From Rhabdophis nuchalis (Eukaryota > Chordata > Lepidosauria > Squamata > Natricidae): 64,000 nt of DNA. Position numbers and translations under genes: made by a program. The notes beneath the pieces are model-generated. The model was given only the letters and a program-made list of their open reading frames with translations, did not search any database and was not told the origin of the DNA. The stretch is from positions 44,210,605 to 44,274,604 of the forward strand of contig CM077643.1 in assembly GCA_039707465.1 (NCBI GenBank). The letters run 5' to 3'. Of the stretch, positions 3,579-64,000 are shown piece by piece (positions within the stretch are counted from its first letter, which is position 1; each line of letters opens with the position of its first letter).

Positions 3579-3899
3579 GGGATTACCTGTTGTCAGGGTT
3601 CGCCATGATAGCTTTGCAAATTGACACCTGTATTCTGTGTGATATTTCTCAGTGACAAGATCACTTACCAGTTTCATCCTTATTAGGAATCATCAGACAC
3701 AGGTAGCCTAATAAAAAAATGATTTTCTTATTATTAATTTTTTAACAAGACAACAGGGTTCTATTATAATATATTATATAATCGTAGGGGGAAAATAACA
3801 TTGAATTTGATATGTTGTCTGTTGTTACTTAAATAGATTCAACAACATTGTTCTAGCCTACATTGGATCTTAATATAATTCTGTTTCTTTCCATTTTAG

Positions 3900-25000: not shown

Positions 25001-28000
25001 CATGATTATATCATTTAAAAGGGTAAAGATTGTACAGATGATAGGGAATCTTGGAGGAAATAATTGCACAAATGATATGTACATGCGGTATAGATTAGAT
25101 TAAACAAATAAATAAAAATGATGTCTTGGGTTGAACCATTCTATGGAATTCCCTGATACAGAAGGAAAGGCAGAGGTTCAGAACATAGTTTTTCTAATTT
25201 GCTTCTTAACATCATGATAACTAGGCTTTGGGTTAATAAAAGAACTCTAAAAGGGGAATCCTTAGTGCCAAAAAAGGAAGAGAAGAGATGTTGTCTAGAA
25301 AAGAAGCTATTGCATAGGACACCTCCACACTCATCACTTATTTATTGGAGCCCTGATACTTCCTACATGCTAGGGCTCTGCAGTTGGAAATCCTACAGTC
25401 AAATCACACACTGAGTGATAGAGTAAAGTCAGTATCCTTTTCAGACCTTGTGTGCCAAAAGGTACAATTATAGCATAAATTAGGATGTTGGAAATAATTT
25501 GATGCCCATGATTTGCTAAAACCTAACCTTACAAGTTAGGTTTTAGCAAATCATGGGCATCCAATTATTTCCAACATCCCAATTGATGCTGTGATCATAC
25601 TCTCTCATTTACCAACCAAAGGCAAGAGAGAAGTATAGTAAGTTATGTTGTGACAGTGAGATGTAATAATAGTTAACTATGTCAACCTCCCCTTTGAGTC
25701 TCTACAGTTCGGCTTGTGCAGTGACAGAAATTGAGTAGCCCAGTACAGATGTGATTCAGAGCACAAGTAATTTGTGGGGTGGATCCATTAAATAAATCTC
25801 CTCACTTTCTTCTGTCAGCACTGGGGGAATGTGCAATTAATCATCGCTATTGGTGGTAAATTTCTTAAAGTCTCTTCTTATATTGTGATGGCTACACGGG
25901 TTAGCAAATATATAACTGTCCATGACAAATATATAACTGTCCAAAACATGTCCAACATGTTTTATTTTCAGTGACCTTGTGAGCTAGATGAGGCTGAAAA
26001 TTCGCTTGCCTTAGATTGTTGTGCTGTTGCAGATGTAGTTTTACTTTACTTTATTGTCATTGTATGTATATACACAGTTTACACATACAATAAAATTCAC
26101 ATAATACCCAGAGACCAGGCCCAACACACATAACAATCCCCAAACACCCACCCACCCATCCAAAAATTCCCTTCCCTAAACCACCCCAGATATCCACACA
26201 ACAGACCAAGTAGTGCTGTCCAATAGCTCACTGATGGTGACCCTTTAGTTCATTGTTGAGTGCAATTATAGCTCTGGGATAAAAGCTATTCAGAAGACAT
26301 GTGGTCCTAGTTTTAATTGTTCTGTATCTTCTGCCAGAAGGCAACATTCAAAAAAGATTGTAAGCAGGATGGGAAGAGTCTCTGAGAATGTTTTGCAACT
26401 TCCTCAAACAGTGAGATGTGAAGATGTCATCCAGGACTGGTAACTGGAGCCCGGTGATTTTCTAGGCAGTTTTAATGATTCTCTGTAGAGCGTTTTTGTC
26501 TGTTGCAGAGCTGCTCCCATAGCATGCAAGAATGCCATATGTCAGGACACACTCAATAGTGCTGCGATAGTAGGACAGAAGTAGATGCTGAGATAGATTT
26601 CTCTTCCTTAGCATTCTCAGGAAGTACAGCCTCTTCTGTGCCTTCTTCACAAGCATGTTAGCATTCGTGGTCCATGAGAAGTCCTCTGAGATATAAATGC
26701 CCAGAAATTTAAAACTACCAACCTTCTCCACCTCCTCGCCATTTATGTACAATGGTAAATGTACATCTCTCTTCCCCCTGAAGTCAATTATAAGTTCTTT
26801 AGTTTTTTTGATGTTAAGTGTAAGATTATTTTCTTTACCTCACAATGTCAGCCTTTGTACTTCCTATAAGCAGACTCATTGCTCATTAATGAGCCCCACC
26901 ACTGTCGTGTCATCTGCAAATTTAATAATTGCGTTGGTGTTATACAATGGGGTACAATCGTGTGTACAAAGAATAAAGGAAGGGATTAGCACCCAACCCT
27001 GGGAGGTTCCTGTGCTTAATATCAGAGTAGAAGAGGGGTGAGATCCCATCCTTACTGACTATGGCCTATCTGTCAGAAAATCCTTTATCCACAAGATTTA
27101 TACCCAAATTGGACATTTTAAGAAACAACTATTAGGTAGAATGGTGTTAAAGGCAGAGCTATAATCCACAAATAGCAACCTTACATATGTTCCCTGTTGT
27201 TCCAAATGATTTAATACAGTATGGACAACAATAGACATAGCATCATCAGTTGATCTATTTCTCCTATATGCAAATTAGTATATGGGTCCAAAGTAGATGA
27301 AAGACTAGCCTTAATATAGTTCAACACTAGTCTGTCAAAACATCTCATGACAACAAATGTTAAAGCTACTGGTCTATAATCATTAAAGAGATACCACTAC
27401 TGTCTGCTTAGGGACTGGCGCTATAATGGATGTCTTCAGGCAGGTAGGGATAGAACACAGCAACGGATAGATTGAAAATATCCGTGAACTCTCTAGCTAG
27501 CTCTACAGCGCAGTCCCTAACAACCCGTCCCATGATTCCATCAGGCCCAGCTGCCTTCCGGATGTTAACTTTCTGGAAAGCGTGACTCGCATCAGAGATC
27601 TGCAGTAGAAGTGGTTGTTTATCGGTGATAGGTTTTAGTAGTGTACTATCAGTGGTAGATGCTGGAATGATGGTCGTTCCTGTTTCCACCTCAAAATGGC
27701 TGAAGATACCCAGTATGCCATGAAATTATAGAATTAAGTATCACAGATGCAGTAATGATAACCAGTTTGACTTGGAGGGGATTTAGATACACCCATAACA
27801 AATAAATCTATCAGTAACTATATTATTCCAAGATTAGAAGTGGCATGAAATAGTGTTAAACAAGAAGCAGTGGAAATGTTTCTTGCCTTCACGCTGTATT
27901 TTAAGGTTACTTGCCTGGCTATTGTTTGAATAGAGAGCTAAATATGTTGGGCTTTATAGCCAGATTCAGCAGGACTTTTTGTAAGTTTTGATGACTGAAC

Positions 28001-32753: not shown

Positions 32754-32833
<80 letters not shown>

Positions 32834-59779: not shown

Positions 59780-59923
59780 ATATGTACTGGCAATTACAAC
59801 TGCCTCACATGTAATACTTCCCAGGTTCAAATCCCAGTAAGGGTATGGCTAGCTGATGAGAGCTCAATAGCTTGAAATAGATTTATACTAGTCTCCCTTA
59901 ATTTATTTATCAGCACAAAAATG

Positions 59924-59957
<34 letters not shown>
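59780..59957 (+). mobile_element. tRNA-headed SINE-like element carrying a hammerhead ribozyme, copy A
   Basis: Order: degraded tRNA-like head (GGCAATTACAACTGCCTC), B box GGTTCAAATCCC at 59824-59835, hammerhead fold (59839-59899), linker TTTATTTATCAGCACAAAAA, and an (AC)n tail from about 59923. The same order is seen in copy B (60262-60447). A Pol III promoter followed by a self-cleaving RNA recalls the hammerhead-bearing SINEs of schistosomes. Naming and mobility are inference. Confidence 0.7.
59839..59899 (+). ncRNA. Type-I hammerhead ribozyme, copy A
   Basis: Stem I AAGGG-TAT-GGCTAG pairs with CTAGTC-T-CCCTT (6 + 5 bp around an asymmetric internal loop, as in natural hammerheads). Core CTGATGA (59853-59859) is followed by stem II GAGCT/AGCTT with loop CAAT, then GAA and short stem III ATA/TAT with loop GATT. 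The cleavable H17 is A59887, with cleavage expected before C59888. The outer stem I is 5 bp here. Every invariant core base (CUGANGA, GAA, U16.1, H17) is present. Confidence 0.8.
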
Positions 59958-59959
<2 letters not shown>

Positions 59960-60124
59960 GTCTTATTGTATTCGGGTCTTTTCCCATGTAAGATATATAT
60001 ATATATACATATACTTGTGTCACAACACCCTGTTAAGCCCCAATTAAGGGAGGAAGCATACTGCTCTCCTTTTCTGCCTTTCGGCTTATCACCAGAGACC
60101 ATCTAGACAGAAAGCTATGAGTTC

Positions 60125-60235
60125 CGTTGTGTAATTTTTTTATATGTGTGTTATGTTTTTGAGCTGATCAATAAATAAGTCAGGGAGACTAGTATAGATC
60201 TATTTCGAGCTTTTTAGCTCTCATCAGCTAGATCC
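60125..60235 (-). mobile_element. Hammerhead SINE-like element, copy C, 5'-truncated
   Basis: Minus strand. Body and tail identical to copy B over about 57 bp (60173-60231 is the exact inverse of 60339-60395), then the TTATTGATCAGCTC linker and ACACAC tail running left to about 60125. The tRNA-like head is missing. Confidence 0.7.
60182..60235 (-). ncRNA. Hammerhead ribozyme, copy C (stem I damaged)
   Basis: The core CTGATGA (60227-60221), stem II, GAA (60206-60204) and stem III are as in copy B. The 5' strand of stem I reads GGATCTAG, so only the inner 4 bp and a few outer pairs form. Activity is therefore less certain. Confidence 0.6.
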
Positions 60236-60261
60236 TCCTGTTTCAGCTGATCAGGAAGAGA

Positions 60262-60416
60262 ACCTGATGGCCTAATGGTTAAGGCTCTTGCCTAGCATGT
60301 AATACAGCCCCGGTTCAAATCCCACTAAGGGTATGGCTAGCTGATGAGAGCTAAAAAGCTCGAAATAGATCTATACTAGTCTCCCTGACTTATTTATTGA
60401 TCAGCTCAAAAACGTA

Positions 60417-60447
<31 letters not shown>
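60262..60447 (+). mobile_element. tRNA-headed SINE-like element carrying a hammerhead ribozyme, copy B
   Basis: A-box-like TGGCCTAATGGTTAAGG at 60265, TGCCTAGCATGTAATAC, B box GGTTCAAATCCC at 60312-60323, hammerhead at 60327-60386, linker TTATTGATCAGCTC, and an (AC)n tail from about 60418. The best preserved copy. A clear target-site duplication could not be found. Confidence 0.75.
60327..60386 (+). ncRNA. Type-I hammerhead ribozyme, copy B (best copy)
   Basis: Stem I AGGG-TAT-GGCTAG pairs with CTAGTC-T-CCCT. Core CTGATGA (60341-60347), stem II GAGCT/AGCTC with loop AAAA, GAA at 60362-60364, stem III ATA/TAT with loop GATC. H17 is A60375 with cleavage expected before C60376. G10.1-C11.1 is the canonical pair. 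Stem III of 3 bp is short, as in other animal retroelement hammerheads. Confidence 0.85.
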
Positions 60448-60449
<2 letters not shown>

Positions 60450-62323: not shown

Positions 62324-62391
62324 TTTCGTAGATTTTCACGGGTGTAGGGGTGCTGGTCTTGTTGTATTCGGGTGTTTTCCCATGTGAAAGA
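62324..62391 (-). mobile_element. PLE terminus, inverted piece
   Basis: TCGTAGATTTTCACGGGTGT to TTTTCCCATGTGAAAGAC is the inverse of the end of the next piece (62440-62516). Same text occurs at 63559 and 63317-63340. Confidence 0.6.
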
Positions 62392-62516
62392 CAGAAGCCT
62401 GAGGATGGCAAGTGAGATCTTGCCGAAATGTTGCAATAACAATTTCATGCTATATACACAGGAAAATATCCGAAAACAGCAATACCAGCATACCTACACC
62501 CGTGAAAATCTACGAA
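62392..62516 (+). mobile_element. PLE terminus with hammerhead-like core
   Basis: Contains CTGAGGA (62399-62405), T, then pairable GGCAAG/CTTGCC around TGAGAT, then GAAA, and ends CCGTGAAAATCTACGA. The core fits CUGANGA...GAA except for one extra T before stem II. PLEs are known to carry hammerhead motifs in their terminal repeats. I could not pair stem I convincingly. Confidence 0.5.
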
Positions 62517-62524
62517 AGCATATA

Positions 62525-62571
62525 TATTTATTGATCAGCTCATAAAACTAACACACACACACACACACACA
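62525..62571 (+). mobile_element. Tail fragment of the hammerhead SINE
   Basis: TTTATTGATCAGCTCATAAA then (AC)n, matching the 3' end of copies A and B. It lies between two PLE pieces. Confidence 0.6.
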
Positions 62572-62604: not shown

Positions 62605-63208
62605 TTCGCAGATACATATGTAGGTTTTGGTTTATTCGGGTCTTTTCCCGTGTAGTATTAAAAGTGTTTTTGCAATGTTTCGACGGGATCATCATCATCA
62701 TCAGGCTGGTGCCTTTGTTTTCTTCCGAGTAAACTGTGATCGAAGTGGCAGTTTTTCTATAAGTAGAGGTGGGGGGGTTGGAATGCTAGCTCTGCTGCTT
62801 TAAACGGATTGGTTGGCTGATTTGTCACATCCTGATTGGTAGATGGAGTTGATGTTTGTTGAGGATAATTGGTGATGGTATCAGTTTTTGTGGCTGGGAC
62901 TCGTTTAGTGGCCAGAGCTATTTTCCAGATGTTTGGCAGGTGGGAGGCATCATCACGTTTATTCATGTTGTGGGGGTGTTTCTCTATTTCAATAGCTTCC
63001 ATAATTATTCTCTTGTTGGAGTGTTCAGTTTTGGAGAGTAATTTGGTTTTTTCAAAATCAATTTCATGTCCTGTTGCTTTGAGGTGTTGGAAAATTGAGG
63101 AAGTATTTTCTTGTTTTTTGACAGCATTCAAAGGCTTCTTTTATAGGCACTTGGGTGAAGAGGGATACGACATCAAAACTCACGAGTAGATCGCTGGGCT
63201 GTAGATTT
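62605..63208 (-). mobile_element. PLE piece, RT motif fused to C-terminal region
   Basis: Minus strand in its own order: VSFDVVSLFTQVPIKEA (PLE RT motif A) near 63190-63140, an abrupt join, then the post-endonuclease region (NAVKKQENTSSIFQHLKATG; RIIMEAIEIEKHPHNMNKRD), a stop near 62757, and a 3' UTR with CCTGATGATGATGATG and CGAAACATTGC. The join removes the rest of RT and the GIY-YIG motif, so it is an internally deleted copy. Confidence 0.65.
62757..63131 (-). pseudogene. PLE C-terminal region (after the GIY-YIG motif), fragment
   Basis: A 124-codon minus-strand frame beginning MNAVKKQENTSSIFQHLKAT. The same segment follows the GIY-YIG motif in the copy at 63793 (KNAVKNHLNTSSLYQHFKAT). 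PLE proteins combine an RT and a GIY-YIG endonuclease. Here the N-terminal motif is absent and RT motif A lies just upstream in another frame, so it is nonfunctional. Confidence 0.65.
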
Positions 63209-63310
63209 TGTTTCTTTATTGTTTCAAAATCTACAGCCCAGCCCTACCCCCAAAATCTACTTGTGAGTTTTGATGTCGTATCCCTCTTCACCCAAGTGCC
63301 TATAAAAGAA
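63134..63310. repeat. Inverted repeat of the PLE RT motif
   Basis: 63134-63208 and 63224-63310 are reverse complements for about 70 bp (CTTTTATAGGCACTTGGGTG outward; GGCTGTAGATTTTG/CAAAATCTACAGCC at the centre) with a 12-bp insertion in the right arm and a spacer of about 15 bp. Confidence 0.85.
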
Positions 63311-63530: not shown

Positions 63531-63554
63531 AAAACATATACTGTATATATATAT

Positions 63555-63798
63555 TCGTAGATTTTCACAGGTGTAGGTATGCTGGTTTTGTTGTATTCGG
63601 GTGTTTTCCCGTGTAAGATTGAAATTGTTTTTGCAACGTTTCAGCAAGATCTCACTTGCCATCTTCAGGCTTCAGTCTGTTGCTATGAAGCTGCCGCCCT
63701 TCCTTAAATCTTGGTGGTGGGGGGTGGAGTGCTGACTCTGTTGTTGTGAGTGGGTTGATTGGCTGTGCAGCTGTATCATGATTGGTAGATTGATGCAT
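63555..63798 (-). mobile_element. PLE 3' terminus with hammerhead-like core
   Basis: Minus strand ends CACCTGTGAAAATCTACGAA. In sense it carries CTGAAGA, T, GGCAAG-TGAGAT-CTTGCT, GAAACG (63669 to 63636), the same layout as 62392-62516. It meets an opposite-strand PLE piece at about 63799. Confidence 0.6.
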
Positions 63799-64000
63799 GG
63801 AGTCTACAAAATTCCATGTAAAATCTGCCCTGCCACTTACATAGGACAAACCAATAGGAGAATAAGTGCACATGTTGCAGAACATAAGAATGCAGTAAAA
63901 AATCATCTTAATACCTCATCTCTTTATCAACATTTCAAAGCTACAGGAAATGATATTGACTTTCAGGGAACTAAATTGATCTCCAAGCTGAACAGCTCAA
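63793..64000 (+). CDS. Penelope-like element GIY-YIG endonuclease, cut by window edge
   Basis: Open frame from ATG 63793 to the window end. GVYKIPCKICPATYIGQTNR contains the GIY (GVY) and YIG motifs with the two cysteines typical of PLE endonucleases, followed by RISARVAEHKNAV and SSLYQHFKATGNDIDF. The nick made by this domain primes PLE reverse transcription. The true N-terminal side (RT) is not joined here: sequence left of 63793 is an inverted PLE end. Intactness beyond 64000 is unknown. Confidence 0.8.
   Translation, partial: MHGVYKIPCKICPATYIGQTNRRISAHVAEHKNAVKNHLNTSSLYQHFKATGNDIDFQGTKLISKLNSS

Follow-up and report, generated by a model that had tools for sequence, protein, structure and literature searches.

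A hammerhead-bearing repeat with a tRNA-like head in the genome of the squamate Rhabdophis nuchalis, interpreted as a probable retrozyme

In the genome of the squamate Rhabdophis nuchalis we find two families of a repeat that are best explained as a retrozyme, that is, a non-coding and non-autonomous retroelement with a unit of ~332 nt (family A) or ~346 nt (family C) whose RNA circles would be copied by Penelope-like elements. We give this reading a probability of about 0.73. The observations behind it are a hammerhead fold with covariation, tandem units, and constant laps, together with copies that end 3' at two preferred positions, are flanked by microsatellites, and often form head-to-head pairs. 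A broader reading, in which amniotes still carry active retrozymes, a Penelope-like reverse transcriptase, priming on both strands of a cut microsatellite, copies RNA circles for several laps, each array stems from one circle, and the hammerhead HH9 descends from such elements, is put forward tentatively, and on balance we doubt it.

The window, i.e., the whole analyzed stretch of 64,000 nt, contains three copies of the ribozyme. The scores given here were obtained with a covariance model (R1) built from the genome's own copies.

60327..60386, plus strand: type I hammerhead ribozyme of family A, intact; 94.7 bits (this exact sequence is among the inputs of the model)
59839..59898, plus strand: hammerhead of an older piece of the repeat; 86.4 bits (sequence among the inputs of the model)
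60184..60239, minus strand: third hammerhead copy, with core and stems II and III intact; 69.5 bits

According to the preliminary description of this DNA, the first copy is a type I hammerhead that is complete, with all invariant bases in place, and lies in a squamate repeat, and this holds: the bases and coordinates were confirmed in the window sequence, the core is intact, and the repeat consists of units found genome-wide. The core CUGANGA (here CUGAUGA, 60341-60347) and GAA (60362-60364), the A15.1-U16.1 pair, and H17 are all present, as are the three helices, with helix I as the open one. Stem II is formed by GAGCU-AAAA-AGCUC and stem III by AUA-GAUC-UAU. Stem I has the claimed arrangement of 6 bp, internal loop, and 4 bp, with an inner part GGCUAG/CUAGUC (six pairs, one of them G-U), an internal loop UAU/U, and an outer part AGGG/CCCU. 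The predicted cut lies between A60375, which is H17, and C60376. The older copy keeps the fold, as had also been stated, with another loop II, a G-U pair at 10.1-11.1, and an extra outer pair. The minus-strand copy, whose stem I is shortened to 4 bp by a head-to-head junction, was absent from that description. The description also lacked the Penelope-like elements, the tandem unit of 332 nt with its tRNA-like boxes, and the inverted pairs.

The hammerhead motif is real and exceeds chance. A descriptor comprising the core, stem II, GAA, stem III with A15.1-U16.1, H17, and a contiguous stem I found three sites in the 64 kb, with stem I of 6, 6, and 4 bp, the last of them on the minus strand. When the window was dinucleotide-shuffled 3,215 times, the same descriptor found no site with stem I of at least 6 bp and eight sites with at least 4 bp. 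The check with Rfam covariance models proposed in the preliminary description turned out negative, as no hammerhead family reached its gathering score in the window for any of the three copies. The best Rfam family for the window copy was Hammerhead_HH9 with 29.0 bits (gathering score 52; E-value 6.3e-5 for 1.1 kb and 0.0037 for 64 kb), and Hammerhead_1 gave 15.6 bits (gathering score 34). The gathering scores were likewise not reached in the nine search loci, of 30, that were scanned with Rfam, where the best values were 34.1 of 52 bits for HH9 and 28.5 of 34 bits for Hammerhead_1, nor in the family C locus L051 (26.7 of 52). For most copies HH9 is the top hammerhead family, at 23.6-34.1 bits, below its gathering score. 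For the monomer, the hammerhead (-15.1 kcal/mol) is predicted to be less stable than the minimum-energy fold (-18.2 kcal/mol); both this best fold and the RNAalifold consensus have another pairing in place of stem III. Since stem III is a 3-bp palindrome, cleavage may perhaps take place as a dimer. A weak hammerhead-like match at 3651-3710 on the minus strand (19 bits and E-value 0.067 with model R1, 23.2 bits with HH9) was set aside as probably due to chance or a very old relative.

The ribozymes of the window belong to larger pieces of the repeat, which are accompanied by simple repeats.

60232..60423, plus strand: piece of the putative retrozyme, unit positions 189-332 then 1-48; 97% to consensus; 3' end runs into (AC)n
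60419..60449, plus strand: (AC)n at the 3' end of the preceding piece (simple-repeat annotation)
60009..60231, minus strand: piece of the putative retrozyme, unit positions 294-332, continuing with 1-184; 99% to consensus; TA repeat at the 3' end
59785..59932, plus strand: older piece, unit positions 230-332 then 1-48; 84% to consensus
59925..59957, plus strand: (CA)n where the older piece has its 3' end; a Penelope-like fragment comes next
62525..62557, plus strand: short piece with a 3' end only, covering unit positions 16-48 and terminating in (AC)n; 8 nt past a Penelope-like 3' end

The pieces at 60009-60231 and 60232-60423 stand head-to-head with a gap of 0 nt. The search space was the window's own assembly, with 1.92 Gb in 348 contigs. 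The first query, representing family A, gave at least 44 matches when 40 of 2,007 first-look candidates were scored. The unit of this family is 332 nt long and non-coding, and the sequence after the ribozyme continues into the sequence before the ribozyme. The sister family C was found via a diverged copy in locus L004, with at least 43 matches from 40 scored of 943 candidates; its locus L051 contains a pure array of 4.9 tandem 346-nt units with 97% identity and without coding sequence. Tandem non-coding units of 332 and 346 nt with a hammerhead in each fall within the ~150-400 nt by which metazoan retrozymes are recognized. The longest ATG open reading frames have 38 aa (family A) and 25 aa (family C), and a frame for a reverse transcriptase plus GIY-YIG is absent from the unit. 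Altogether, perfect 35-nt ribozyme cores occur genome-wide 1,833 times for family A (944 + 889) and 2,119 times for family C (1,153 + 966), and the reversed control patterns occur 0 times. Copies were present in four of twenty random 10-kb loci from nine large contigs. The covariance model identified seven hammerheads in these 200 kb, six of which are among the inputs of the model, and a very rough extrapolation from this small and clustered sample (four of the seven lie in one locus) gives ~7 x 10^4 hammerheads per genome. Three scans of viral contigs gave 0 matches.

The ribozyme set used for the analysis of covariation comprised 68 segments (49 distinct) taken from 98 pieces. Of 50 sources, 34 contributed pieces, with L001 excluded as lying inside the window. 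On 45 distinct copies, 97.5% of cells of the 18-pair hammerhead are paired, and seven of the 18 pairs show double-sided change, in 19 cells. Among 500 shuffles, none matched the real structure on four of five measures and one did on the fifth; the number of pairs with double-sided change was matched by 0 of 500. Structures slid along the alignment pair in 34-53% of cells, and the structure slid by -1 has six pairs with double-sided change, but in eight cells vs 19. Because relatedness of the copies inflates such counts, more weight falls on the comparison of the two families, for which the family C consensus was taken from four whole units of one array, in L051. Between the consensus sequences of the two families, 12 of the 54 positions of the ribozyme are different, with all 11 core bases and all 14 tested pairs kept. 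These differences include three compensated pairs (one each in stems I, II, and III), one change from G-U to A-U, N7, and H17, the remainder being two loop bases and one outer-stem base outside the 14 tested pairs. Random placement of 12 changes kept the core and the pairs in 397 of 1,000,000 trials. Aligned identity between the families is 43/54 within the ribozyme vs 162/276 outside. The core, the 14 pairs, and H17 are retained in 46 of 68 copies, and in the other 22 at least one of these features is gone; the commonest loss is G12 to A, seen in nine copies, at a CpG. Differences between older and younger consensus sequences were too few to serve alone as proof of selection, and this line was dropped. 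As judged from these sequences, the conclusion holds that the hammerhead fold has been maintained by selection for structure. The preliminary description had suggested as much from two copies, which by themselves are thin evidence; with 49 distinct copies and a second family, each of stems I, II, and III is now seen to have undergone compensatory change.

Directly upstream of the ribozyme, both families carry motifs resembling the A and B boxes of tRNA genes, found by eye.

60261..60333, plus strand: tRNA-like head; Rfam tRNA 22.1 bits (gathering score 29)
60268-60278, plus strand: A-box-like TGGCCTAATGG, by eye against the A-box consensus
60312-60322, plus strand: B-box-like GGTTCAAATCC, by eye against the B-box consensus

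An older copy in locus L018 scores 29.0 bits with the Rfam tRNA model, equal to the gathering score; the same model gave no match in L051 up to an E-value of 0.1, and ARAGORN found no tRNA in the window. The arrangement suggests that Pol III may transcribe the repeat from its internal boxes. A head of this kind, SINE-like abundance, and Rfam scores below gathering would also suit an ordinary tRNA-headed SINE that carries an unused hammerhead-like fossil and acquired its tandem units via unequal crossing-over or slippage. We consider such a SINE distinctly unlikely, given the compensatory change between two source lineages and the anatomy of the copies. The 5' ends of the pieces are scattered, with a small excess near the tRNA-like start in their histogram and no single start, and 13 of the 98 pieces are longer than 362 nt, whereas a SINE RNA with a single 5' end does not yield pieces over a unit.

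The spacing of units within arrays also bears on how the tandem copies arose. Among the first 100 of 2,119 places of family C, all seven arrays with at least two direct spacings were exactly constant (347, 346, 345, 346, 346, 350, and 344), from array to array the values vary between 342 and 350, and such constancy was matched in 0 of 100,000 permutations. In two stretches that lack middle units, the count was confined to direct neighbors; the stretch near 79.91 Mb, with spacings of 344 and 346, would be an exception if joined. The spacing in L051 is constant as well (346 four times). The first 100 places of family A include no array long enough for this test, and their unit-size spacings are 341, 337, and 338. 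A lap fixed for each array could reflect one circle copied repeatedly; it would equally fit local tandem duplication, and the SINE explanation thus predicts constant spacing too. In the nine multi-unit copies with more than 90% identity, which are poor in variants, 0 or 1 variants are common to the laps, and this counts, if anything, mildly against one circle. Older multi-unit copies share 3 to 20 variants between laps, a count that decides nothing because subfamily differences can explain the sharing.

The 3' ends of the 98 pieces are concentrated at two internal positions of the unit (u), with 59 at u35-64, 24 at u169-198, and 15 elsewhere, so that 83 of 98 fall in two 30-nt bands. The query that picked the loci itself ends near u45, and a fairer set is therefore given by the 69 pieces that lie outside the search match; 37 and 21 of them (58 of 69) have their 3' ends in the two bands, and 11 elsewhere. 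A simple repeat is present within the first 30 nt of 50 of 97 3' flanks, compared with 10 of 98 5' flanks and 358 of 20,000 random 30-mers. The orientation of neighboring pieces is uneven: the 46 neighbors within 60 nt comprise 28 head-to-head, 12 tail-to-tail, and six tandem cases. Among the first 100 places of each family, whose coordinates were not selected for orientation, neighbors closer than 1 kb were head-to-head in five cases (the pair of the window included), tail-to-tail in one, and on the same strand in four for family A; the respective numbers for family C were 11, 0, and 35. Both outer ends of head-to-head pairs are mostly RNA 3' ends in or beside simple repeats. A run-off peak of cleavage was sought among the 98 pieces, and 2 of 98 5' ends lie within 2 nt of the cut site, without enrichment. 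The lack of a pile-up at this site suggests that the template is usually something other than cleaved linear RNA, and we claim no genomic footprint of cleavage.

LINEs are known to produce 5' inversions through twin priming, and SINEs, as tRNA-headed elements, usually depend on LINEs. Given this background, the retrozyme might instead be mobilized by a LINE, with the head-to-head pairs resulting from twin priming. This is unlikely in our view: the outer ends of the pairs are mostly RNA 3' ends at simple repeats, and neighboring Penelope-like copies show the same head-to-head and simple-repeat pattern. Two Penelope-like features of the window are the following.

63736..63999, plus strand: Penelope-like GIY-YIG frame that runs off the window (PF01541, E-value 0.013, below cut-off); candidate relative of the helper
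62325..62516: head-to-head Penelope-like 3' ends, 62325-62385 on the minus strand and 62389-62516 on the plus strand

The sole protein match of the frame is a Phrynocephalus forsythii protein named GIY-YIG in UniRef (73% identity). In the genome the frame has 7,313 first-look candidates, of which 150 were scored, with open frames up to at least 1,046 aa. The outer ends of the pair at 62325-62516 lie in (AC)n and beside TATATA. The loci that supplied the 27 Penelope-like 3' pieces had mostly been selected for the retrozyme. Of these pieces, 15 extend to the full 3' end, and simple repeats follow in 12 cases; four of six close neighbors are head-to-head, with gaps of 0-4 nt. One of 20 random loci contains a Penelope-like piece, and this count, like the choice of loci, limits the case for a link. 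By the anatomy, which is a correlation, a Penelope-like helper is suggested.

Copies of the unit are intermixed with Penelope-like elements, one is fused to GIY-YIG coding sequence (by eye, at L025:1961), and Penelope-like elements bear type I hammerheads themselves (PMC7761336). The unit could, from these points, be the pseudo-LTR of an autonomous Penelope-like family and no separate element. However, the Penelope-like 3' ends of the window terminate in CCGTGAAAATCTACGAA and the unit has no BLAST match inside them, and the pure tandem array of L051 exists without coding sequence, which makes this explanation very improbable.

Several further observations concern the Penelope-like elements and the rest of the window. 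The fusion in locus L025 spans 1948-1961 and joins the unit, ~11-14 nt past the predicted cut, to Penelope-like GIY-YIG coding sequence, forming a chimera (by eye). The Penelope-like ends at 62389-62516, 63554-63690, and 62617-62690 share a hairpin, CCTGARGATGG...GAAA, which in the third of them reads CCTGATGATG and which resembles, by eye, the minimal hammerhead reported for Penelope-like elements. A near-palindrome at 63136-63310 (81% over 186 bp), amid Penelope-like fragments, is another head-to-head arrangement and yields spurious plant miRNA matches in Rfam. A hairpin-like MIR8706 match at 25474-25588 on both strands (56.6 and 54.6 bits, below gathering) is perhaps a small inverted-repeat transposon, and a perfect (ATT)26 microsatellite occupies 32754-32832.

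For the retrozyme we propose the following cycle. Multi-unit copies would be transcribed, probably from the internal tRNA-like A and B boxes. The hammerheads, perhaps acting as dimers, would cut the RNA into unit-length pieces, which the host would ligate into circles, as is known in other animals. A Penelope-like reverse transcriptase-endonuclease would open (AC)n or (TA)n DNA and prime on each of the two strands, starting inside the unit at either u~48 or u~184. Copying of the circle would extend over anything from a partial lap to several laps, and two cDNAs would be joined head to head.

Penelope-like elements have been described as a strong candidate mobilizer of animal retrozymes (PMC7229834; PMC7761336), and metazoan retrozymes are reported to have no conserved motif that names the helper (PMC7761336). 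The Penelope-like element PAc (Poseidon) of Anolis, as presented in PMC11167929, shares with the units a hammerhead, internal starts, and cleavage and extension of both target strands by its protein, which has been purified and shown to be active. In contrast to the units, whose frames have at most 38 aa, PAc is autonomous with an RT/GIY-YIG open reading frame, and its internal starts fall at two adjacent sites within an AC-rich stem-loop, whereas the starts proposed here are ~136 nt apart. The PAc start sites are not homologous to the cut DNA according to PMC11167929, unlike the target relation proposed here. The same study reports that PAc ribozyme mutants insert normally in vitro and that no PAc reads begin or end at its ribozyme cut site (PMC11167929). 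These results from Anolis count against the proposed picture and are weighed in the confidence that we place in the retrozyme reading and its broader extension.

The repeats match metazoan retrozymes in unit size, in tandem arrangement, in the type of their hammerhead (type I), and in having no open reading frame; such retrozymes are those characterized from corals to an amphibian. Among other hammerhead-bearing repeats, the schistosome element Sm-alpha has a longer helix III. Sm-alpha and Sj-alpha, which unlike the units are flatworm elements, resemble them by description in being SINE-like, tRNA-related, and hammerhead-bearing, with about 38,500 and 5,000 motifs, respectively (PMC2770079). 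The axolotl retrozymes Rtz_331 and Rtz_353, in the account of PMC7229834, likewise have a type I hammerhead and form two families of tandem units (330 and 350 bp there), co-occur with Penelope-like elements, and reach very high copy numbers, and one of the two has a weak helix III with a palindromic tetraloop. The parallel between 332 and 346 nt here vs 331 and 353 nt in axolotl is close in unit length (PMC7229834). Unlike the axolotl elements described there, the units reside in a squamate host and have tRNA-like boxes directly upstream of the ribozyme, two preferred 3' ends, head-to-head pairs, and microsatellite flanks. Reptilian hammerheads have been described as conserved intron motifs, and the amniote intronic HH9 (Rfam RF02275) and HH10 are isolated motifs of this kind (PMC6155905), whereas the units are repeats; a likeness remains in that HH9 is the best Rfam hammerhead family for most copies here. 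Type I hammerheads, usually in tandem, have been surveyed from cnidarians to mammals (PMC7761336). The main texts of PMC7229834 and PMC7761336 contain no word beginning with 'reptile', and we found no squamate retrozyme in the open-access literature searched; a reptilian example may exist in wider surveys, supplements, or Repbase/Dfam. The kind of element is already known; what is new here is that a squamate probably harbors one, and that this retrozyme has a tRNA-like head and has left a signature of its insertion that can be read.

The legible marks of insertion described here bear on the question of what mobilizes animal retrozymes: preferred internal 3' ends, RNA 3' ends at both flanks, microsatellites, and laps that are constant for each array. 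If true, this reading would help to settle how ribozyme-bearing elements spread in animals.
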